Positions 5,938 through 54,516 of a DNA stretch of 55,920 bases are shown here, one piece after another. The position numbers and the translations under genes were made by a program. Each line of letters opens with the position of its first letter. Position 1 is the first letter of the stretch. The notes beneath the pieces are model-generated. The model did not search any database and was not told where the DNA came from. It was given only the letters and a program-made list of their open reading frames with translations. Source of the DNA: a virus; IMG/VR virus record IMGVR_UViG_3300005253_000382, positions 1 to 55,920 of that record; one strand, written 5' to 3'.

Positions 5938-6165
5938 TTATATCTCCTGTTCGAGTTCGCAATTTCCGCCAGTGTCATGATGGCAGATGTGCCAACTTGC
6001 CCTTACCGTCATTTCTTCATTTCCCATACCCTCATTGATTTTGACAGCATAAGACTTGGCTAGTTTAAGTAGCTGGTAAAGTTCTACCAACTTTCCTCTG
6101 ACGGCAGGTTTATCTGCTATCTCTTTGGGAATTGCCAAATCTACTCGTATTCTAATCAAAGCCAT
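5938..6165 (-). CDS. hypothetical small protein
   Basis: 75 residues from the ATG at 6165, beginning MALIRIRVDLAIPKE. This start is preferred over the upstream ATG at 6180 because a GGGGG stretch lies at ribosome-binding distance before it. Helical middle (RGKLVELYQLLKLAKSYAVK) and a C-terminal Cys/His group (WHICHHDTGGNCE) that could bind a metal. Sits in the tail operon between the zinc-ribbon gene and the YENN-family gene. Function unknown. Confidence 0.6.
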   Translation of the reverse strand: MALIRIRVDLAIPKEIADKPAVRGKLVELYQLLKLAKSYAVKINEGMGNEEMTVRASWHICHHDTGGNCELEQEI

Positions 6166-26859: not shown

Positions 26860-27054
26860 ATGAAAAAAGGTAGCTTAGAAGGGCTAGCCTTGGATAGAAT
26901 AAAAGAATTATTAGAAGTGATTGAGCGTTCCATAACAAGAGAATGTGCGGACAAAGGCGAAGAACTTAAATCTGGCACTCACTTGTGTGATATTTCGGTA
27001 GCTAATACTGATGCCAAAAGATGGGTTAGGGCATTACTGGAAGAACTGACATAG
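26860..27054 (+). CDS. hypothetical small protein
   Basis: 64 residues; helical N-terminal half (LDRIKELLEVIERSITREC), then a C/H/C trio (C, HLC) and a helical end. AAAGGAGG before the ATG. Followed by the structured non-coding stretch at 27.1 kb. Confidence 0.65.
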   Translation: MKKGSLEGLALDRIKELLEVIERSITRECADKGEELKSGTHLCDISVANTDAKRWVRALLEELT

Positions 27055-27098
27055 GCGAACTATGAAGTAGCGAGTGATATTGAACTTAATATATGAAA

Positions 27099-27118
27099 TA
27101 GCACCTTAACAATTGAAT
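27099..27118 (+). repeat. junction repeat R3, copy 1
   Basis: TAGCACCTTAACAATTGAAT, identical to 27697-27716. Here it is non-coding. A variant (AATAATTGAATAGA) begins the leader RNA at 41.4 kb on the other strand. Confidence 0.8.
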
Positions 27119-27285
27119 AGAGCCTGCTGGTGTCCTGTATATCGGTAATCCAGCTTGGATGATAGCTGATGAGCCAAAGGCACAAGCCCTCAATGTCCGT
27201 CTAGTTCAAAATAGCTAACCGCTTGACTATCTGGCCGGGGGTTGAGGTCCCCGGTCAGCCGTGAGGCGGTAAGTAAATAAAGGAG
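27119..27285 (+). ncRNA. structured untranslated region in rightward operon
   Basis: Non-coding stretch between two small genes. It contains a 10-pair hairpin (27231-27240 with 27249-27258, loop GTTGAGGT) nested inside CCGC/GCGG (27219-27222 with 27266-27269), just before the AAAGGAGG of the next gene. Upstream is a weaker GCTGG/CCAGC hairpin and the string CTGATGAGCCAAAGGC. The hairpin lacks a U-run, so it is not a terminator. It may control translation or stability of downstream genes. Whether it is an independent RNA is unknown. Confidence 0.5.
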
Positions 27286-27292
27286 GGATGAG

Positions 27293-27469
27293 ATGCCACT
27301 AACACCTGAACAACAAGAGTTTGTTAAGGAAGTAGATGAGTTCAAGATTCAATCACACAATGTACTAAAGGAAGCCCGGGAATTAGATGCTAAAGCCATA
27401 TCTATTATCAAACGCTTTAACAAGCTTGAGAAAATAATTAAGGATATGGCAAAGGAACACGGATTATAA
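27293..27469 (+). CDS. small coiled-coil protein
   Basis: 58 residues, all helical: LTPEQQEFVKEVDEFKIQ then ELDAKAISIIKRFNKLEKII. AAAGGAGGGATGAG upstream. Just downstream of the structured hairpin. Function unknown. Confidence 0.65.
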   Translation: MPLTPEQQEFVKEVDEFKIQSHNVLKEARELDAKAISIIKRFNKLEKIIKDMAKEHGL

Positions 27470-27494
27470 TACTCTAGCTGAGGAGGTTTAGAAG

Positions 27495-27707
27495 ATGACC
27501 CCGGAAAAGCGATATAAGAAATACCTGAAAGACCTGATTACTCAAGTAGAAATTCATCTTACTGATATAGATAAAATTATGAAACTACCTGAGAGCAACA
27601 AGAGAGGTCAACTTATCGCCAAATCGTGTAATAACTTGGATTTGGTGAAAGATATGGCAAGGCACTTTGGACTTGGTTTGCCCTTCAAAAAGAAAGTAGC
27701 ACCTTAA
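27495..27707 (+). CDS. small basic helical protein
   Basis: 70 residues, TPEKRYKKYLKDLITQVEIH ... with a basic end (PFKKKVAP). GAGGAGG precedes the ATG. Its last codons lie inside the R3 repeat. Similar in style to the preceding gene, perhaps a diverged duplicate. Function unknown. Confidence 0.65.
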   Translation: MTPEKRYKKYLKDLITQVEIHLTDIDKIMKLPESNKRGQLIAKSCNNLDLVKDMARHFGLGLPFKKKVAP

Positions 27708-27716
27708 CAATTGAAT
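27697..27716 (+). repeat. junction repeat R3, copy 2
   Basis: Same 20 bases as 27099-27118, here covering the last three codons and stop of the upstream gene plus nine bases beyond it. Confidence 0.8.
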
Positions 27717-27736
27717 GTTAAGGAAAGGAAGGGAAG

Positions 27737-27883
27737 ATGTCGCCAACAATGATTAGGTATCTCAGGGACAATTACTGCCTACAGTTTGGACATTGTAAGC
27801 TCCGTTCTCACCCTTGCATCAAGAACCTGGAGGAAGTGAGGGTTGTATGTATGGAGTGTAAGAAATTATCGAGAGGAGGTTAG
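27737..27883 (+). CDS. small Cys-rich protein
   Basis: 48 residues with five cysteines: C14, C20, C27 and CMEC near the C-terminus, likely a zinc knuckle. AAGGAAGGGAAG precedes the ATG. Function unknown. Confidence 0.55.
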   Translation: MSPTMIRYLRDNYCLQFGHCKLRSHPCIKNLEEVRVVCMECKKLSRGG

Positions 27884-27889
27884 TATGAA

Positions 27890-27923
27890 GAAGTATCAGA
27901 TAATATATGCTGAAAGGGGAAGG
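27890..27923 (+). repeat. RBS-leader repeat R2, copy 1
   Basis: Contains AAGTATCAGATAATATATGC followed by TGAAAGGGGAAGG. The same module (TATATGCTGAAAGG plus purines) precedes genes at 29162 on this strand, and 36389 and 37562 on the opposite strand. Confidence 0.7.
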
Positions 27924-27927
27924 TTTA

Positions 27928-28353
27928 ATGTTTGAAGTTAAATATAAGGCGCTGAGTTTTAAGCAACCTTGGGCGTGGTTGATGTGTAAGGGATTTAAGG
28001 ATATAGAGAATCGGAATTGGCAAACAAGATTCAGGGGGCGGATTTATGTCCACGCTAGTAAATCGCAATCAGATATGGACAAGGAGACTCTAGCTTTTAT
28101 GCTGAAACGATTGTCGAACAGGCAAGCTAGTGAGTTTATGCTTGCTTATAGCCGATTGACTTTTGGGGCGATAATAGGCGAGCTAAATATTACTGGATGT
28201 GTGGATTTACACCCTAGCCCGTGGTTCTTTGGAAAGTATGGTTTTATGGTTAGCGAGCCAGTCCTTTATGACAAGCCAATCCCGTGTAGGGGTAAACCTA
28301 GTTTTTTCACCCCAGAGCTAACTGAAGTGAGTATCTTTAAGTTGGGGCAATGA
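27928..28353 (+). CDS. ASCH-domain protein
   Basis: 141 residues from the ATG at 27928 (AAGG upstream). The N-terminus, ALSFKQPWAWLM.KGFKDIENRNW, followed by FRGRIYVHASKS, matches the ASCH/PUA-like fold (S..QPWA..I..G.K..E.R.W...RG...IHA). ASCH proteins bind RNA or act as small nucleotide-processing enzymes; some hydrolyse N4-acetylcytidine. Here an RNA-binding or nucleotide role in early infection is inferred. The stop lies within repeat R1. Confidence 0.75.
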   Translation: MFEVKYKALSFKQPWAWLMCKGFKDIENRNWQTRFRGRIYVHASKSQSDMDKETLAFMLKRLSNRQASEFMLAYSRLTFGAIIGELNITGCVDLHPSPWFFGKYGFMVSEPVLYDKPIPCRGKPSFFTPELTEVSIFKLGQ

Positions 28354-28376
28354 AGTAGAGAGTGATATAGAAATTA
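28342..28376 (+). repeat. dispersed junction repeat R1, plus-strand copy
   Basis: TTGGGGCAATGAAGTAGAGA followed by GTGATATAGAAATTA. Near-identical copies end two minus-strand genes (36179-36212 and 36931-36963), and a weaker one lies at 27054-27087. Each is read in a different frame. Confidence 0.8.
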
Positions 28377-28388
28377 AAGGAGGTCAAG

Positions 28389-28664
28389 ATGACAGATAAA
28401 CTGGTGGAGAAGTGCTTGTTGACACCTGAAGAAATGAAAGAGGCGTGGCTAAAAGCCTGTAGAGAGAATACTACACTAGATATGCTCAACTATCCGCAGG
28501 TCATAACCAAAGATCAACTAATCAAGGCCATCCCCATCATAGCCGAGGAGATAAAGAGGGAGTTGGAGTTAGAAAGCTACGGAGACCCTAGAGTTACTGA
28601 TTGGGTAAAAATCTCTTATAGTGATTGGCACACATTCTGGGAAAAATATAAAGGAGGTAAATGA
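28389..28664 (+). CDS. hypothetical protein
   Basis: 91 residues, charged and helical (LLTPEEMKEAWLKACREN), with W-rich end (WVKISYSDWHTFWEKYKGGK). AAAGGAGG before the ATG. Overlaps the next ATG by 4 bases. Function unknown. Confidence 0.7.
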   Translation: MTDKLVEKCLLTPEEMKEAWLKACRENTTLDMLNYPQVITKDQLIKAIPIIAEEIKRELELESYGDPRVTDWVKISYSDWHTFWEKYKGGK

Positions 28665-29095
28665 TGCAAGAGACTAAACAATTAGAGGAACAAATCAAGG
28701 TGGTGGCTGAGGCGAGACAACGGGCACAGAATGCAGTAGCAGTTAAGACCGCCTGTCAAAGAGAATGGGTGGACGAGAACAAAGATATGCTTGACATTGT
28801 TGTTGCTGTAGCACAAGAAGTAACCGAAGCCGAAGTCAAGCTCCGAGAACTCACACTCCAAGCCTATGCTGAGACCGGCAACAAAGCACCGGCAGTAGGT
28901 GTGGGTATCAGGGAAGTAACCAAGCTAGACTATGATGGCAAGGTTGCCTTTGACTGGGCTAAGTCGCACAAGATGGCATTGAAACTAGATGTATCAGCCT
29001 TTGAGAAGATAGCGAAGGCAGACACACCTGATTTTGTCAAAATCACTACTGAACCACAGGCTACAATAGCTACTGAACTTAATAAGGTGGAGTAA
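28661..29095 (+). CDS. conserved phage coiled-coil protein
   Basis: 144 residues. Long N-terminal helix (residues 1-75) and a C-terminal domain with AETGNKAPAVGVGIREVTKL, AFDWAKSH and AIATELNK-like ending TIATEL. I recognise this layout from phage early regions, where it lies near recombination or single-strand-binding genes, but it has no assigned function. Overlaps the upstream gene by 4 bases. Confidence 0.65.
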   Translation: MMQETKQLEEQIKVVAEARQRAQNAVAVKTACQREWVDENKDMLDIVVAVAQEVTEAEVKLRELTLQAYAETGNKAPAVGVGIREVTKLDYDGKVAFDWAKSHKMALKLDVSAFEKIAKADTPDFVKITTEPQATIATELNKVE

Positions 29096-32349: not shown

Positions 32350-32531
32350 TTCTTCCTCCTTATCTTACAAGCTGGTTGCTCACCATGCCATTCACATAAT
32401 TTCATATACATCTCACAGTTAGATTGTAGGAATTTCTTACAGGGTACTGTATCTCTAACATGCTGATTGGGGGGCTTGTTATCCCCTGATAGATATTGCG
32501 GGCAAGTGATATGTATGTAACAGTTTTTCAT
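32346..32531 (-). CDS. Cys-rich small protein
   Basis: 61 residues with six cysteines (C4, C10, C31, C39, C46, C55) and HITCPQYLSGDN. It lies between the radical SAM gene and the ABA-sandwich gene with 4-base overlaps on both sides. Several Cys could bind zinc or an iron-sulfur cluster. Possible partner of the neighbouring radical SAM protein, by proximity only. Confidence 0.55.
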   Translation of the reverse strand: MKNCYIHITCPQYLSGDNKPPNQHVRDTVPCKKFLQSNCEMYMKLCEWHGEQPACKIRRKK

Positions 32532-33400
32532 CTTTTCTCATATTCCACGCAAAATGTCTCAAAATCATACTTGGCGAATGTCCAGAATTGGTTACACCAT
32601 TCAGCTAGTCTTATATATTGTTTCTCTCTTGGGGTGTTCTCATGCCTCATAATGTAAGGGCGACAGTCGAGCTTCCGCAGTAGATTACAACGTTGTAAAT
32701 CTTGTTCGAAGGTAGTATTAAAGCCGACCAAAACATAGAAGAAAATATACTTCCGCTTGTAGTGTTGGCGAAGCAGGGCAATTTTCTCTCTAACTATTGG
32801 CTCTAATTCAGGATAATCAAAGGCAAATCGAACACCGCCCTTTAACCTAACTTCATTTAGCAACTTAATTATGCGAACTGTCAATAAGCGAATGTCCATA
32901 CCTTGATTCCAATCAATAGCCAGTGATTCTCTTATCGCTTGCCTGGCTATCTTTTCAAAGTGGTCTTCATCGGCATAGGGATTATTGTCATAAAGCACCA
33001 CCCATTCATTTTTACCATCCCAAACATCATAAATGTCCCCAATAGCATGCCAATATCCTTCCTTGCGTCGTACAATACAAAAGGGGCAATTGCGGATACA
33101 CCCCAAAGAAGTATAACCGTAGTTTATATGTGGCTTTACGCCCTCAATCTCTTGTGGTAATTTTATATCTAGGTCGAACCCACTACCGCCAGCCATAATA
33201 TTGGGGTGCAACCCTAATAAATTCTCTACTTTTTGTTTATTCTTGGTGAATATACAAGAGGCATAAACCTTGTCCGCATTATAGATATCCATAGGTGAAC
33301 CCCATAGAACACTATCGCCTTGCTGAGCGTGCCACATGGCTATTTTATGGAGTGCGATATTGGGTAGCTTACTATCTATATTCAAAAGCAATATGTTCAT
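32528..33400 (-). CDS. radical SAM protein (early region)
   Basis: 290 residues. CIRNCPFC (C101, C105, C108) is the CxxxCxxC [4Fe-4S] motif. A preceding segment (MNILLLNIDSKLPNIALHKI) resembles an N-terminal Rossmann-like region of B12-binding-type radical SAM proteins, though no cobalamin histidine motif is clear. DYPELEP and YVLVGFNTT match barrel strands. Homologues in phage early regions are known but their substrate is not. Between the metallophosphoesterase and a Cys-rich small protein. Confidence 0.8.
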   Translation of the reverse strand: MNILLLNIDSKLPNIALHKIAMWHAQQGDSVLWGSPMDIYNADKVYASCIFTKNKQKVENLLGLHPNIMAGGSGFDLDIKLPQEIEGVKPHINYGYTSLGCIRNCPFCIVRRKEGYWHAIGDIYDVWDGKNEWVVLYDNNPYADEDHFEKIARQAIRESLAIDWNQGMDIRLLTVRIIKLLNEVRLKGGVRFAFDYPELEPIVREKIALLRQHYKRKYIFFYVLVGFNTTFEQDLQRCNLLRKLDCRPYIMRHENTPREKQYIRLAEWCNQFWTFAKYDFETFCVEYEKR

Positions 33401-34906: not shown

Positions 34907-35779
34907 TTAACCCTCCTCTTTGCCAAGTGGCATAATATTAACGAATTTTTCACCACCCACTAGCTTAAACGACCACCGTAAACCATCGGGGTTGACATCT
35001 CTATCCACCCATGATTTGCCCTTCAGGATTTTTAGAATCCCACCCTCCATAGAAACAACCATTCTTGGTAATTGCTTGGCCCAATCTTTTCCATAAGGCA
35101 AGTCTCTCCCCTCTGGCTTCTGTAGCATAACAATCCATATACCAGTAGTTAGCATATCCCTAAGTTCTCTAAGTAAAGTTCTAATCTCCCAAATGTTTTC
35201 AGGGGATTCTAGGTAGTCAATAATATTGAGAGCATCTGGTTCACCCACATCGGCAAAATCAAAACTCTTGGAACGAATTAAATCGTCTGGCCACTCTTGA
35301 AAGTTGGAGTATTGAGATAATCTCTCATATAATTCTGCCTCACTATTCTCGGTATCAAACAAAACAATCTTATGCTTCTTCCAGTTAAGGTCTACAATGT
35401 TATGAGCAATAGCGGTCTTGCCTGCTTGTGGCGACCCCCCAAAAATAATAACGCTCCTGCGTGGGGTTTTCACATACTCTTCCAAGCCAAAGGGATACTT
35501 AATATCAAACCATCCCCCAGGATTAGCGTGCTTAAAATTCAGTATGTCGTAATCCCTATCAATAACCTGATAAAACCTGTCTCTCTTTTTAAGTTTGGGC
35601 TGTTGTTTGGTAGTTTCATAATAGAGTTTCTTGGAAAGAGCATCCCTGGTTTCCCTCTCCCTCCAATCATAGTATCTGGCAATATCATCAAAGGTGAAAC
35701 GCTCATCTAGCCGCAAGAGAAACCACTCATCAACCCTTAGTGATACCTTCTTATATACTCCGTCTGTGGGTTCATCCAT
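34907..35779 (-). CDS. RecA/RepA-type replication ATPase
   Basis: 290 residues. Walker A GGSPQAGKT (114-122), an acidic FDTENSEAE segment (141-149) as in RepA/AAA_25 proteins, and a Walker B-like ALNIIDYLE (183-191), followed by MLQKPEGRDLPYG. N-terminal 100 residues contain an HTH-like portion (TFDDIARYYDWRERETRDAL). Shorter than DnaB helicases. Its position directly beside a phased TTGTAT array makes it the best candidate initiator or helicase for phage replication. ATG has AAGGAG ten bases upstream. Confidence 0.8.
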   Translation of the reverse strand: MDEPTDGVYKKVSLRVDEWFLLRLDERFTFDDIARYYDWRERETRDALSKKLYYETTKQQPKLKKRDRFYQVIDRDYDILNFKHANPGGWFDIKYPFGLEEYVKTPRRSVIIFGGSPQAGKTAIAHNIVDLNWKKHKIVLFDTENSEAELYERLSQYSNFQEWPDDLIRSKSFDFADVGEPDALNIIDYLESPENIWEIRTLLRELRDMLTTGIWIVMLQKPEGRDLPYGKDWAKQLPRMVVSMEGGILKILKGKSWVDRDVNPDGLRWSFKLVGGEKFVNIMPLGKEEG

Positions 35780-35783
35780 TTAG

Positions 35784-35915
35784 TTGTATCTCCTTGTATA
35801 TTTTGTATCCGCTTGGGTGTGTTTGTATGAAAGTTGTATAGAATTTGTATGAGTTTTGTATGGACAAGGCTAGAATTCTCAATACAAGACCTCCTATATA
35901 CTATATTAAATAATA
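35784..35915. other. candidate replication origin: TTGTAT iteron array plus AT-rich DNA
   Basis: TTGTAT on the plus strand begins at 35784, 35794, 35803, 35823, 35834, 35845 and 35856. A degenerate TTGGGT fills the gap at 35813. Spacings are 10, 9, 10, 10, 11, 11, 11, one helical turn each. A run of A/T (TATATACTATATTAAATAAT, 35894-35913) follows. This is the layout of iteron origins, next to the replication ATPase. It could also be an operator array for that gene. Confidence 0.65.
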
Positions 35916-36178
35916 TCTTTCTTATAAGAGAGCTTCTTCTTCTGTTCGATAACCTTTTTAAGATTTTCTTCTAGGGATACGATTCTTTCCTGTAATCGCA
36001 TAGCTTTTCTATCAAGATGTATGTGAGTATGTGTATGAATAGTTTGTTTCTCAGGAATCTTTTCCTCTTCAGGGTATGTGGGGTAGGACTGAAACTTACT
36101 TCTCCAAGCCTCCAGCCTAGCTCTGGCTTCGTATATTTCTACCCATTGTTCTCGGGTGAAAAGGGGTTTAGTATTCAT
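35906..36178 (-). CDS. coiled-coil protein with His-rich stretch
   Basis: 90 residues. Helical N-terminus (TREQWVEIYEARARLEAWRS), central alternating His/Thr run (HTHTHIH, residues ~47-53) that could bind metal, and a C-terminal coil (RLQERIVSLEENLKKVIEQK). Upstream of the origin candidate in the same transcript. Function unknown. Confidence 0.6.
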   Translation of the reverse strand: MNTKPLFTREQWVEIYEARARLEAWRSKFQSYPTYPEEEKIPEKQTIHTHTHIHLDRKAMRLQERIVSLEENLKKVIEQKKKLSYKKDII

Positions 36179-49884: not shown

Positions 49885-50009
49885 TATTTCTTCCTCGTAA
49901 ATTCCTTTAGTTTCTTCTCGGATAACCCTGTCTTGGTTTTCTTCCCTGCCCTCCGCCTTGAAAGCTCGGCTCCAAAGAACCTTCTCTGCTTTGTACTCTT
50001 AGCTGGCAT
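49884..50009 (-). CDS. DUF3008-like small basic protein
   Basis: 41 residues, MPAKSTKQRRFFGAELSRRR then AGKKTKTGLSEKKLKEFTRK. The pattern MPAKS..Q.RFFG...R(R)..K...S..K..EF is that of a small phage family known from many genomes, with unknown function. Follows the thiamine-enzyme beta gene with an 11-base overlap. Confidence 0.75.
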   Translation of the reverse strand: MPAKSTKQRRFFGAELSRRRAGKKTKTGLSEKKLKEFTRKK

Positions 50010-50538
50010 TACTCACCTCAATCAATAAACTACTCCTGTCACTATTCAAGGCACACTTATAACTCTCAACAACATCCTCAGCCTTGTCTAGTTTAATGAC
50101 ATCCACGTTCTTTAATATGTCCCTGAAGCCTGAAGTGTAATCAGAGCAATGCTGTATCCCGGGATATAAAGGTTCGGTTGCTCCTACTGCTGTACGTATG
50201 ATTACTTTAGGATTGAACTCTCCATTGCTCATTTCACTTATCTTGTCCAGATGATTGACTAGCTGGTTCATTGCCAGGATTAAGAAATCAAATCTCGGAT
50301 AAATGCTAATCGGGATATACCCCTCTAAAGATAACCCGATACTCATACCTAATTGGGTATCTTCCATAATTCCAACCTCTAATCTCTTGTCCATTGGTAC
50401 ACCTTTTAACGTGTCATACATACCACTCCCCGAATACTCCACTGTCTGCCCTAAGAATATCGTTCTGGGGTCACTCCCTAAAAGGGTCATTGCTTTTGTC
50501 AGTTCTTCATACATCAAAAATTCACCCACTGCCCGCAT
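49999..50538 (-). CDS. thiamine-diphosphate enzyme, pyrimidine-binding subunit (E1-beta-like)
   Basis: 179 residues. GQTVEYSGSG, then GIMEDTQLGMSIGLSLEGYI (E59 aligned with the catalytic Glu that activates thiamine) and PRFDFLILAMNQLVNHLDKI are the transketolase/E1-beta pyrimidine-domain motifs. It stops after this domain; the usual C-terminal transketolase domain (about 130 residues) is absent. Overlaps the alpha subunit gene by 25 bases, implying 1:1 coupling. Acts with the alpha subunit on a 2-keto acid or ketose donor; substrate unknown. Confidence 0.8.
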   Translation of the reverse strand: MRAVGEFLMYEELTKAMTLLGSDPRTIFLGQTVEYSGSGMYDTLKGVPMDKRLEVGIMEDTQLGMSIGLSLEGYIPISIYPRFDFLILAMNQLVNHLDKISEMSNGEFNPKVIIRTAVGATEPLYPGIQHCSDYTSGFRDILKNVDVIKLDKAEDVVESYKCALNSDRSSLLIEVSNAS

Positions 50539-51065
50539 CCGTGATGAGGAAAGCCCCTTTCATAGCTATATCTCCATACATCCTTTGTTGGAGTATTCAC
50601 ACTAAAACCGTTATCTTCCACCACAAATTTAATCGGTAACTCGTGTCCGTTAGCATACTTAACGCATTCGTGAAAAACCCCTGTCTCAGCCCCCATATCA
50701 CCGATGAATACCCATACCTTATTAGGAGCATTCCGCCTCTTTAGTCCCAATGCCACACCAAGGGCTATCGGTAAACACCCCCCCACAATAGAAGAAGTGA
50801 AAAACTTATGCTCTTTACTATTGATGTGCATTGACCTGTTATCCAGTATCTCAGCCCGTAACCATTCCACACCCATCCCCTTTAATAAGGCGTGGTAATG
50901 ACTCCTATGAGTGGAGAATACCCAATCATCAGGGTGAATATTCCTGAATATGCTAATCAACTGCTCCTCATTCCCCTTACTCAAATGCACCGGCGAATGT
51001 ATCTTCCCACCAATGTAGGCAGTTTTAATCCCTTCCTCAAAGTCTATTAAGGTCTTGGTGTCCAC
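50514..51065 (-). CDS. thiamine-diphosphate enzyme, diphosphate-binding subunit (E1-alpha-like)
   Basis: 183 residues. FSTHRSHYHALLKGM, SSIVGGCLPIALGVALGLK and FIGDMGAETGVFHECVKYA ... VVEDNGFSVNTPT are E1-alpha signatures. D123 and N152 are the Mg/diphosphate ligands; the usual GDG has become GDM. About half the length of standard E1-alpha, missing the N- and C-terminal extensions. No E2 lipoyl gene is present, so the intermediate is probably passed to an aldehyde or sugar acceptor. Part of the modification cassette. Confidence 0.8.
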   Translation of the reverse strand: MDTKTLIDFEEGIKTAYIGGKIHSPVHLSKGNEEQLISIFRNIHPDDWVFSTHRSHYHALLKGMGVEWLRAEILDNRSMHINSKEHKFFTSSIVGGCLPIALGVALGLKRRNAPNKVWVFIGDMGAETGVFHECVKYANGHELPIKFVVEDNGFSVNTPTKDVWRYSYERGFPHHGCGQWVNF

Positions 51066-52267
51066 TCTAGCATCTCCTGTATCTGGATTACTGCTTGCTT
51101 CCCATACTTCTTCTGTATCATTTTCAGGTAATCTTCCCTTGAGAAGTATTCCTGAAAAGCCCTGTCTCTGAACTCCAACACTTCCTTAGAAGTCAAATAC
51201 TTGGTCGGTAAGGGCTTCAGGTTAGGAGAATACTGGTCGTAATCCTCCCATTTATCAGGTAAATCCTCTTTAGGGGTGTCTTCGTACAATTGAGAGCCTG
51301 GATAAGCCATCGCACAGTAGAAATTAACATACTCACACTTTAATTCCTCAGCGAAGTCTAAAGTCTCCCTCATTGATTTAAGGTCGTCATCAGGCAGGCC
51401 AAATATGAAGTTCCCCAGAACACTTATACCCGCCTCTTTGGTCATCTCAGTGGCTCTCATCATATCTTCCGTACTTTGTTTCTTACCTATACCTTTGAGA
51501 ACATCCTCGTTAGCTGATTCAAAACCATAAGCCAGCCAGTTTATGCCGACTTGCTTCATTCTTTTTAACATCTCAGGTTGTACCAAACCTACCTTAGCAT
51601 ACGCCCACACATTCAGATTCTTCCCTTCCAAAACATCACATATCTGGTAGACGTGACTTGGGCTTATTGTAAACAACTCATCGGCTATCTTCAGGTTCTT
51701 AACTCCTTTAGAAACCAGATAATCTATCTCCTCACCTACATCTTGTGGCTCCCTGTAAGTTACCCCCTTATATAGCGTGTGGATGTTACAATAAGAGCAA
51801 CTAAAAGGACACCCGAATGACGTATAAATAACTCCGTAATTACTCCTGTCACTCCCATTCAGACAGTGCCAATTGTGAGCTTTATATTTAGAGAAGTCTA
51901 TTAAGTCCCAACGAGGGACAAGCTCACACAATTGCTCAGGAGAAGGTATTGGCATACAATAGCCTTTTTGAGTTACAGCTTGATGATGCAGTCCCATTAT
52001 CTTTGGGGTTTTTATAAGCCTATAATAAAGTTCACCCACTATTCCCATCTTAGGCGTAGAAGACGCTGAAGGATTTGCTCCCATTGCTACAAGAACTGAC
52101 TTCTCCTTTCCTATCTGAGCTACTGTTTCCCACGATGACCATCCCTCAACCTCAGCATCGAGTATTTTATCAGCCTTCAAATAACCCGCTAGATAAGCAC
52201 ACCATATCGGAGGCTCTATCGCTGATTGAGGCGAAGGATTCCTATGATTTGGATTAACGATAATCAC
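51047..52267 (-). CDS. B12-binding-type radical SAM protein
   Basis: 406 residues from a GTG with AGGAG upstream. N-terminal Rossmann-like region (MIIVNPN...PPIWCAYLAGYLK, VLVAMGANPSA) as in cobalamin-binding radical SAM proteins, though the DxHxxG cobalamin ligand is not evident. The iron-sulfur motif CPFSCSYC is at C153, C157, C160. ADELFTISPSH, YGFESANEDVLKGIGKKQS and GNFIFGLPDDD are standard barrel elements. C-terminal ~110 residues resemble the variable domain of these enzymes. Could carry out a C- or P-methylation or ring rearrangement on a sugar; substrate unknown. Confidence 0.85.
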   Translation of the reverse strand: MIIVNPNHRNPSPQSAIEPPIWCAYLAGYLKADKILDAEVEGWSSWETVAQIGKEKSVLVAMGANPSASSTPKMGIVGELYYRLIKTPKIMGLHHQAVTQKGYCMPIPSPEQLCELVPRWDLIDFSKYKAHNWHCLNGSDRSNYGVIYTSFGCPFSCSYCNIHTLYKGVTYREPQDVGEEIDYLVSKGVKNLKIADELFTISPSHVYQICDVLEGKNLNVWAYAKVGLVQPEMLKRMKQVGINWLAYGFESANEDVLKGIGKKQSTEDMMRATEMTKEAGISVLGNFIFGLPDDDLKSMRETLDFAEELKCEYVNFYCAMAYPGSQLYEDTPKEDLPDKWEDYDQYSPNLKPLPTKYLTSKEVLEFRDRAFQEYFSREDYLKMIQKKYGKQAVIQIQEMLEWTPRP

Positions 52268-52677: not shown

Positions 52678-53470
52678 AATAAATTACCTTTGCCCCGTCA
52701 GTATCAAACTTAAACTCCACCTGTTTTATCTTCAATGCCTGCCCGACATTATCCTGCTTGTCCGGCTCAACCACAAAGACTATAAACCCTCCACCTCCAG
52801 CCCCTAAAAGTTTCCCTCCTATCGCACCGGCTTTGAGAGCTTTATCATAAATGGTATCCGTGAGGGGAGAGGAAACATCATCAGCCAGTTTCTTCTTGAG
52901 TTGCCATGACATATCAAGTGCTGCCCCAAACTCTGAGGGGGTGTTGTAGTCATTCAATGCCACCTCCTTTAACTGATGAAGTATATCCTGATTCTCATCC
53001 ACTCTTTCAAGCTGATGCTCCACTATCTTCCCAGCACTCCTATATTGTCCTGTATCAAACAACATTAAGTAAGGCTCAAGCCATCTGTAATCTACTTCCT
53101 CATCTACTATCCCGGAAGCATAAAACCTTAATCTGCGAAACCCACCCATAGCACAAATATACTGATCTTGATAACCAACATGACCATCCAGTTTATCCCT
53201 CTCCCATATCGTAGCGAGACCTGCTATCTCCTCATTACTCTTATCCGTGCAAGCCTTCAGTAACCCTACCGTAAAAGCCGAACTCGTTGCCATACCACTT
53301 CTCACAGGTAAATCAGAATGCGACCACATCTTCCCGCTATCTACTCCTACATAACAATACTTATTTATCGAGGTGGCTAGAACTACTCCCCCGTGTTCGT
53401 TAAAATATTCAGGGTAATCCGTCCCTCCTCCAAAAAAGGATATTCTAAATGGTGTCCTGCTTATAATCAT
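52670..53470 (-). CDS. GHMP-family sugar kinase, HddA-like, internally shortened
   Basis: 266 residues. Start RTPFRISFFGGGTDYPEYFN and the end GKLLGAGGGGF are the D-glycero-D-manno-heptose 7-phosphate kinase (HddA) signatures. The phosphate-binding motif PAG.GLGSSS is replaced by RSGMATSSAF (57-66). About 60 residues that normally separate the first strand region from this motif are missing, so the protein is shorter than the ~330-residue norm. Might still bind a heptose or related sugar phosphate. ATP use is likely but not certain. Confidence 0.75.
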   Translation of the reverse strand: MIISRTPFRISFFGGGTDYPEYFNEHGGVVLATSINKYCYVGVDSGKMWSHSDLPVRSGMATSSAFTVGLLKACTDKSNEEIAGLATIWERDKLDGHVGYQDQYICAMGGFRRLRFYASGIVDEEVDYRWLEPYLMLFDTGQYRSAGKIVEHQLERVDENQDILHQLKEVALNDYNTPSEFGAALDMSWQLKKKLADDVSSPLTDTIYDKALKAGAIGGKLLGAGGGGFIVFVVEPDKQDNVGQALKIKQVEFKFDTDGAKVIYCD

Positions 53471-54516
53471 GGGAAGCTAACGCACATACTATCGCTCTCA
53501 ATTGCAGTGACCTGTTTATTGTATTCACTCCACGTACACCTGGCACACTCTACAGCAGGGTCAATATCTTTAAGCAATGCCCTGTGTTCATTGGAACCCC
53601 ACTCTTTAATCTCAAACCTTTCCTCCATCCTGTGGTCAACACAAACGTACATCTTCTTATCACTGCATATCTGCACTACTAAAGGTGAAGCCAGGCATTT
53701 ATTGAAGTCATGCTTAACGTGAAACTCATTATCATATTTATGCGTTACCGTGTGTACATGGAAATCCTCCCCTTCCAACTCATGCAATTGACTAAACACA
53801 TAATGCACCTTCTCCATATCCAGTTCAGCCCTTTCCCCGGTAAAGTCTTTTCTCTCTAAATCTACAGGTCGAACATGAAAGTCCTGAACACCTAATTCTT
53901 TAGCAACCTTACCGGTATAAAGTAACGTGTCTATAGTCTCAGGCAGAACCAATGCCTTAATGCAAATATCAGTTCTCTGTCTATGGAGTGCCAACCACTT
54001 TATATTATCTAACACCTTCAAGCAGTCATCACTACCCCTTACCTTCCTGTAGACCTCAGGGTCCGCACTGTCCAATGAAATCCCGACCCACCTGCAAAGC
54101 TGTAACTCATTACGTACATCCGAATCCATGAGTACCCCATTGGTAATTATCGAACACTCCATTCCGAGATTAACACCATAAGCAGTCATCCCTTTTATGT
54201 TCTCATTCAAGAGAGCTTCACCACCACCACCCCAGCAGAAGGCTTTAACCCCCCATTCAGAAAGATAATTAAGAGTGTCTTTAATGTATTCTCCATCCCA
54301 CTTAAACTTAGCCGGTAAATATCGCTGAGAATTACAGTAATAACAATTCTGATTACAAGCGCTTATAGGGTCAAGGGAAGCCTCAATCGGTGCAGGAAGT
54401 TCCCCACCATCAAGCCATGCCACTATCTTTTTGTAATGCTCGTAGTACGTTAATCCTTTGTACGAGTTAAAACTTGAGTATTTATTAGCGTCAGACCACT
54501 CTTTTATCTTTTCCAT
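53467..54516 (-). CDS. radical SAM/SPASM-like protein
   Basis: 349 residues. CNQNCYYC (C54, C58, C61) is the [4Fe-4S] site. WGGGGEALLNENI is the GGE motif and ISLDSADPEVYRKVRG the SAM-ribose strand. C-terminal cysteines (C268, C278, C287, then CARC) form a SPASM-like auxiliary cluster region. Such enzymes modify peptides, sugars or sugar nucleotides (for example epimerisation or dehydrogenation). First enzyme of the cassette. Overlaps upstream and downstream genes by 1 and 4 bases. Confidence 0.85.
   Translation of the reverse strand: MEKIKEWSDANKYSSFNSYKGLTYYEHYKKIVAWLDGGELPAPIEASLDPISACNQNCYYCNSQRYLPAKFKWDGEYIKDTLNYLSEWGVKAFCWGGGGEALLNENIKGMTAYGVNLGMECSIITNGVLMDSDVRNELQLCRWVGISLDSADPEVYRKVRGSDDCLKVLDNIKWLALHRQRTDICIKALVLPETIDTLLYTGKVAKELGVQDFHVRPVDLERKDFTGERAELDMEKVHYVFSQLHELEGEDFHVHTVTHKYDNEFHVKHDFNKCLASPLVVQICSDKKMYVCVDHRMEERFEIKEWGSNEHRALLKDIDPAVECARCTWSEYNKQVTAIESDSMCVSFP

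Follow-up and report, generated by a model that had tools for sequence, protein, structure and literature searches.

We found a helically phased array of TTGTAT repeats directly 5' of a gene for a winged-helix ATPase in the window, meaning the whole 55,920-nucleotide stretch analysed here, which belongs to a 66-kb IMG/VR virus record. Judged from its sequence, from its relatives and from a structure model of the ATPase, the array is probably the iteron half of a replication origin, at which the winged helix (wHTH) of the ATPase itself would bind the iterons and load a RecA-type helicase at the adjacent AT-rich element. With somewhat less assurance, we lean towards the wider reading that this is a widespread class of viral origins, in which iterons and the winged helix of the helicase travel together as an exchangeable cassette. 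In many lineages the iterons would be embedded in the winged-helix codons themselves, and a simple code would apply, by which Arg or Lys at residue 49 specifies G at unit position 1.

The repeat array, the ATPase gene and their genome

The array lies in the 126-bp intergenic gap between two minus-strand genes, at 35906-36178 and at 34907-35779, the latter encoding the ATPase. Seven exact copies of TTGTAT were found in the gap, all on the plus strand (35784-35789, 35794-35799, 35803-35808, 35823-35828, 35834-35839, 35845-35850 and 35856-35861), which read ATACAA on the coding strand. Their start-to-start spacings are 10, 9, 20, 11, 11 and 11 bp, and a degenerate plus-strand unit in phase with them, TTGGGT at 35813-35818, splits the 20-bp step into 10+10 and brings the overall phasing to 9-11 bp. 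Since the ATPase gene starts at 35779, the array end falls in its leader, and on the coding strand the Shine-Dalgarno sequence GGAG (35790-35793, minus strand) and the ATG are embedded among the last ATACAA units; GGAG sits between two units, and the unit at 35784 lies between GGAG and the ATG. A lone inverted copy (35882-35887, ATACAA on the plus strand) was found 26 bp from the array. Beyond it is the candidate unwinding element at 35895-35924, which is 90% A+T and is the AT maximum per 30 bp of the whole record. The eight phased units on one strand (one degenerate) and the A/T run beyond them, both described in the original prediction, were thus confirmed. Short direct repeats in one orientation at helical spacing, an adjacent AT-rich element and linkage to a replication gene are among the marks of an iteron origin, and each of these three was found at this site.

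The TTGTAT array was the top 6-mer cluster of the window, with seven units against four for the runner-up. In the 66-kb record other 6-mers formed chains of at most four, the chain of four being an overlapping word of the TTGTAT array, and the longest chain in 200 Markov shuffles of the record was three. A relative, L012, whose ATPase is 87% identical to that of the window, retains all seven exact units, spaced 11, 11, 11, 20, 9 and 10 in coding-strand order (a near-identical contig, L001, was uninformative for conservation). Between the window and L012 the unit bases were unchanged at 42 of 42 positions, against 23 of 40 spacer bases, with 17 of 40 altered (Fisher p 5e-7). The counterpart of the degenerate unit in L012 also retains CAA alone, the inverted copy is also present, 29 bp from the array, and the AT-rich element is likewise the AT maximum. 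An overlapping frame of 36 codons, with a TTG start and a good Shine-Dalgarno sequence, runs through the array in the window and could be taken for a coded leader peptide. However, L012 has this small ORF in another frame; coding therefore does not account for the array, in agreement with the earlier claim, and the leader peptide was rejected. Chance and a relic of tandem duplication are likewise refuted by the kept units and changed spacers in L012 and by the shuffles, which never came near seven units; explanations of this group have next to no probability.

The ATPase gene (34907-35779, minus strand) encodes a product of 290 aa, which we propose as an initiator-helicase from domain matches, a structure model and fold comparison. 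The product showed a weak DnaB_C match and a better match to DnaB-like phage helicases. In the AlphaFold2 model (mean pLDDT 93, from a 51-sequence alignment) a winged helix at residues 7-72, with a recognition helix at 42-57 that includes Ser49, is followed by a RecA fold, and the closest solved folds are DnaB, RadA and KaiC. The corresponding minus-strand codons are 35564-35761 for the winged helix and 34910-35506 for the RecA/DnaB-like ATPase domain. The protein is homologous to the C-terminal half of the PrimPol-helicases of Methanosarcina virus MetMV and of vir555, and by these homologous domains it joins their wHTH-RecA (PrimPol-linked) helicase family. The fused PrimPol that is typical of most family members is lacking in the window ATPase, as in several other stand-alone members, and neither PrimPol (PF09250) nor Toprim_2 (PF13155) was found in the 66-kb record, which is possibly partial. 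By sequence, then, the neighbour that had been called a RecA/RepA-type ATPase is a member of a wHTH-RecA/DnaB-like family usually fused to PrimPol; its position directly next to the array and its RecA-type domain stand, and a relation to plasmid RepA is not demonstrated.

Cumulative GC skew had been suggested as a check of the origin, but it cannot decide, because it follows gene strand in the window, and it was rejected as an origin test. A plus-strand gene block with inverted GC skew was seen at 27000-29000 in a genome that is otherwise minus-strand. The first and last 500 bases of the record, compared as a clue to origin or circularity, had no 14-base word in common. The window also carries metabolic cargo that is unusual for a tailed virus, comprising adjacent genes (49999-51065 and 51047-52267) for two thiamine-diphosphate (transketolase/E1-like) parts and a radical SAM protein. 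More radical SAM-like genes were seen at 32528-33400 and 53467-54516 and in another locus (L010:1821-3404).

Arrays and winged helices across the protein family

Searching with an alignment, we obtained 71 viral loci with homologues of the ATPase. A loose detector (exact hexamers 8-23 bp apart) picked up phased arrays built on diverse hexamers (TCTACA, GTTACA, CCACAA, TCAGCA, GTTGAA and others), most of which were located at the ATPase gene; shuffled sequence gave no phased arrays. A strict test compared each gene with its own synonymous recodings, in which the protein is preserved, and a gene passed at p<=0.01. It was passed by 36 of 58 dereplicated family genes and, with identical settings, by 9/14 (bacterial and archaeal bins) and 10/15 in later sets. 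Overall, 55 of 87 homologous genes beat their synonymous-codon shuffles at this threshold with arrays of differing sequence, against 5/127 control long ORFs of the loci. Among these five control hits, two were coding repeats of 12 bp and another two were situated immediately 3' of the ATPase gene. In about one third of the family genes no array was detected at the sensitivity of the strict test. The spacing between successive exact copies was mostly 9-11 or 19-22 bp, and it re-emerged when 8-23 bp was allowed. The ATPase was the sole gene family common to all 47 array loci within the flanks examined, and the next family occurred in 13 of 47. An AT-rich neighbour of the arrays was not enriched family-wide (median percentile 0.46). 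A single-sequence search of genome contigs gave no relatives and an alignment-based search of them gave 14.

Besides the window, the array lies directly upstream of stand-alone wHTH-ATPase genes in L012, L037, L069, L080, L119, L146 and L169. In other relatives it occupies a primase-helicase gene, either in the linker that follows PrimPol or within the wHTH codons; the automatic split between these two places was blurred by alignment and is for rough use only. Where the array occupies the wHTH codons, all three reading frames are used for a single hexamer, which dictates residues such as ST, VY and LQ; these residues are often missing from members whose array is elsewhere. Our searches of open-access papers turned up no account of iterons within these codons in this family, and such a lack is weak evidence. 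Phased arrays just 3' of the ATPase gene were seen at L110 (about 6118-6156) and L054:6173-6241, where both genes are without an internal array. A 12-bp coding tandem repeat (TAGCGT core, 14-18 copies) was seen in the gene upstream of the ATPase at L017:810-1014 and L020:1877-2033. At L103:3870-5915 the wHTH-RecA part is fused to a DnaG-like primase (by eye, with a zinc-finger-like start and a Toprim-like middle) instead of PrimPol, and eight phased units precede the gene; it seems that primase modules can be exchanged.

With the units registered and oriented by hand, the family consensus on the coding or antisense strand is usually NNNACA. The variable triplet followed the recognition helix and wing (Mantel r 0.37; partial given RecA 0.35, p 0.0005), against a partial value of -0.04 with the RecA domain given the wHTH. 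Units beginning with G were accompanied by Arg or Lys at residue 49 of the recognition helix in 11/11 cases, compared with 2/30 for the non-G units, the two with Arg49 being CTAACA and TTAACA. In a later set, from which L119 was left out with a misaligned residue 49, Arg was found at this residue for 5/5 clear GTNACA units and for GCGACA, and the non-G units were without Arg. Contact between Arg and guanine is a standard mode of DNA recognition. Units also differ between related helicases that have swapped winged helices: L050 and L060 have 75% in common over the RecA domain but 37% over the wHTH, and their units are not the same, while L060 and L034, both with TCTACA, share 62% and 56%, respectively. 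The window and L037 are only 31% identical overall, yet both have ATACA-type units and a similar recognition helix. The G-first state changes eight times on the RecA tree, where only two independent pairs are well supported, both in the expected direction, which is too few for a formal phylogenetic test of the residue-49 rule. As the sequences are related, the covariation between unit and residue 49 is partly phylogenetic. Binding of the repeats by their initiator, which is expected of an iteron array, is suggested indirectly by this covariation of unit and recognition helix.

A separate search for TTGTAT in four copies at 11-bp intervals gave matches in the leaders of gp32-type SSB genes, with a Shine-Dalgarno layout like that of the window. 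In the near-identical L085, L086 and L092 and in L088, ATACAA at about 11-nt spacing merges into the Shine-Dalgarno sequence of such genes, and an RNA role is possible for these arrays of other phages. TTGTAT arrays with 11-bp spacing were also seen at L083:1487-1525 and 1771-1809, L094:11045-11083, L097:1692-1730, L099:2277-2315 and L089:266-304, beside or inside SF3 primase-helicases, a replication initiation protein, a DnaD-like loader and a gene next to an IstB/DnaC-like ATPase. The occurrence of such arrays at other replication genes suggests that short repeats in helical phase are a design used generally for origins.

Alternative readings and a proposed mechanism

The array could be an autoregulatory operator only, on whose duplex the ATPase or another DNA-binding protein represses transcription, with replication placed elsewhere. 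In agreement with this, the array stops no more than about 20 nt from the start codon in the window, L012, L037, L069, L080, L119 and L169, but many relatives carry the array 500-1000 nt inside the ORF, and because those arrays are so deep in the reading frame a promoter operator is unlikely in many of them. A promoter scan, which covered the sigma-70 type, also gave no match at the array, and a terminator scan at the array found nothing. We consider the operator reading unlikely. It is more doubtful still that the array acts at the mRNA level, where ATACAA repeats on either side of the Shine-Dalgarno sequence, in a leader without structure, would bind a translation-blocking protein, as single-strand-binding proteins do on their own messages. 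The units do flank the Shine-Dalgarno sequence and the ATG, the leader does not fold above its shuffles (z +1.2), and the four gp32-type leaders have a like layout. Against this, family arrays lie deep in ORFs and in both orientations, with the ACA core antisense in L041, L055, L070 and L071. Duplex DNA is favoured because the residue-49 rule still holds in the antisense-core L041 and L055, and the 10-bp periodicity and the winged helix point the same way.

Helicase loading by a distinct origin-binding protein is common, as with lambda O and RSF1010 RepC, so the array might instead be read by a host initiator or another viral protein, with the ATPase loaded afterwards. However, no other gene family is common to the array loci within the flanks examined, the unit sequence tracks the ATPase's own wHTH, and the window has three DnaA-box matches, below the chance expectation, with none near the array. 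Such a separate reader is very improbable in our judgement. The most likely reader, as far as binding can be inferred, is the protein encoded next to the array. The original prediction named either the ATPase or an HTH protein; from the covariation we amend this, as the HTH is probably the N-terminal domain of the ATPase and not a separate protein. The design of an iteron origin is supported by the conservation of units and spacing in L012, the family arrays of other sequence and the covariation of unit and recognition helix.

For the iteron origin we propose the following course. The N-terminal winged helix would bind one ATACAA per helical turn, so that about seven to eight subunits stand on one DNA face, as the phasing, the family covariation and the model suggest. 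From their fold, the RecA/DnaB-fold domains may thereby be concentrated into a ring or spiral. The AT-rich element at 35895-35924, whose position and conservation are observed, would then open, and the ATPase would load on the single strand and begin unwinding. Since PrimPol and Toprim_2 were not found in the record, the primer would presumably be supplied by another primase. Autoregulation of the ATPase gene may be a second effect, as units cover the ribosome site. The equivalent module of relatives is found 5' of the gene, in the linker between primase and helicase, or within the winged-helix codons. If this is true, the same stretch of gene would in many lineages specify the reader together with the text that is read, and a concrete candidate origin and initiator would be available for a large group of viruses with little annotation, some of them assigned to methanogens. 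A single protein and short oligonucleotides would be enough to test directly both the apparent recognition code and the double duty of the codons, which specify the binding domain and also contain its proposed site.

Comparison with known replication systems

SaPI Rep and SCCmec Cch2 are also mobile-element helicases with their own DNA-binding domain and short direct repeats beside their own gene, and the 5-nt AAGTG iterons of Cch2 are required for its helicase activity (PMC7581432). In those systems the binding domain is C-terminal and the origin is downstream of the gene (PMC7581432), whereas the window has a RecA/DnaB-like ATPase in place of an AAA+/SF3-type helicase domain, an N-terminal winged helix and iterons upstream (in relatives, upstream of or inside the gene). 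The lambda O/ori system likewise has iterons and an AT-rich region inside the initiator gene, but there the iterons are central within O and the helicase is recruited separately (PMC7466680). In the present case the units are helically spaced hexamers, the window array is outside the gene, the relatives' units lie in DNA-binding-domain codons, and the initiator candidate is itself a RecA-fold ATPase. Because fold, domain order and position differ, the array is not a member of the SaPI/Cch2 or the lambda type.

The pRN1-type replicon combines an archaeo-eukaryotic primase, a helicase and a winged helix in one protein that acts near its own gene, but with an SF3 helicase, a C-terminal winged helix and a stem-loop origin without iterons (PMC4234260). 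RSF1010 RepA/RepB'/RepC similarly brings helicase, primase and iteron-binding function into one initiation set, as a three-protein scheme (PMC4234260). The iteron reader RepC of RSF1010 is separate, whereas in the window the reader is proposed to be fused to the ATPase. The helicase of RSF1010 has a RecA fold.

The PrimPol-helicases of MetMV and vir555 differ from the window ATPase in that PrimPol is in the protein and the array is not outside the gene; in this analysis we recognised their phased linker arrays (CCACAA and GTTGAA x11, respectively). Their wHTH-RecA part is homologous to that of the window, with 34% and 26% identity, respectively. The proposed origin would add a case of a RecA/DnaB-fold ATPase that apparently recognises its own origin, as SF3-type Rep proteins do.
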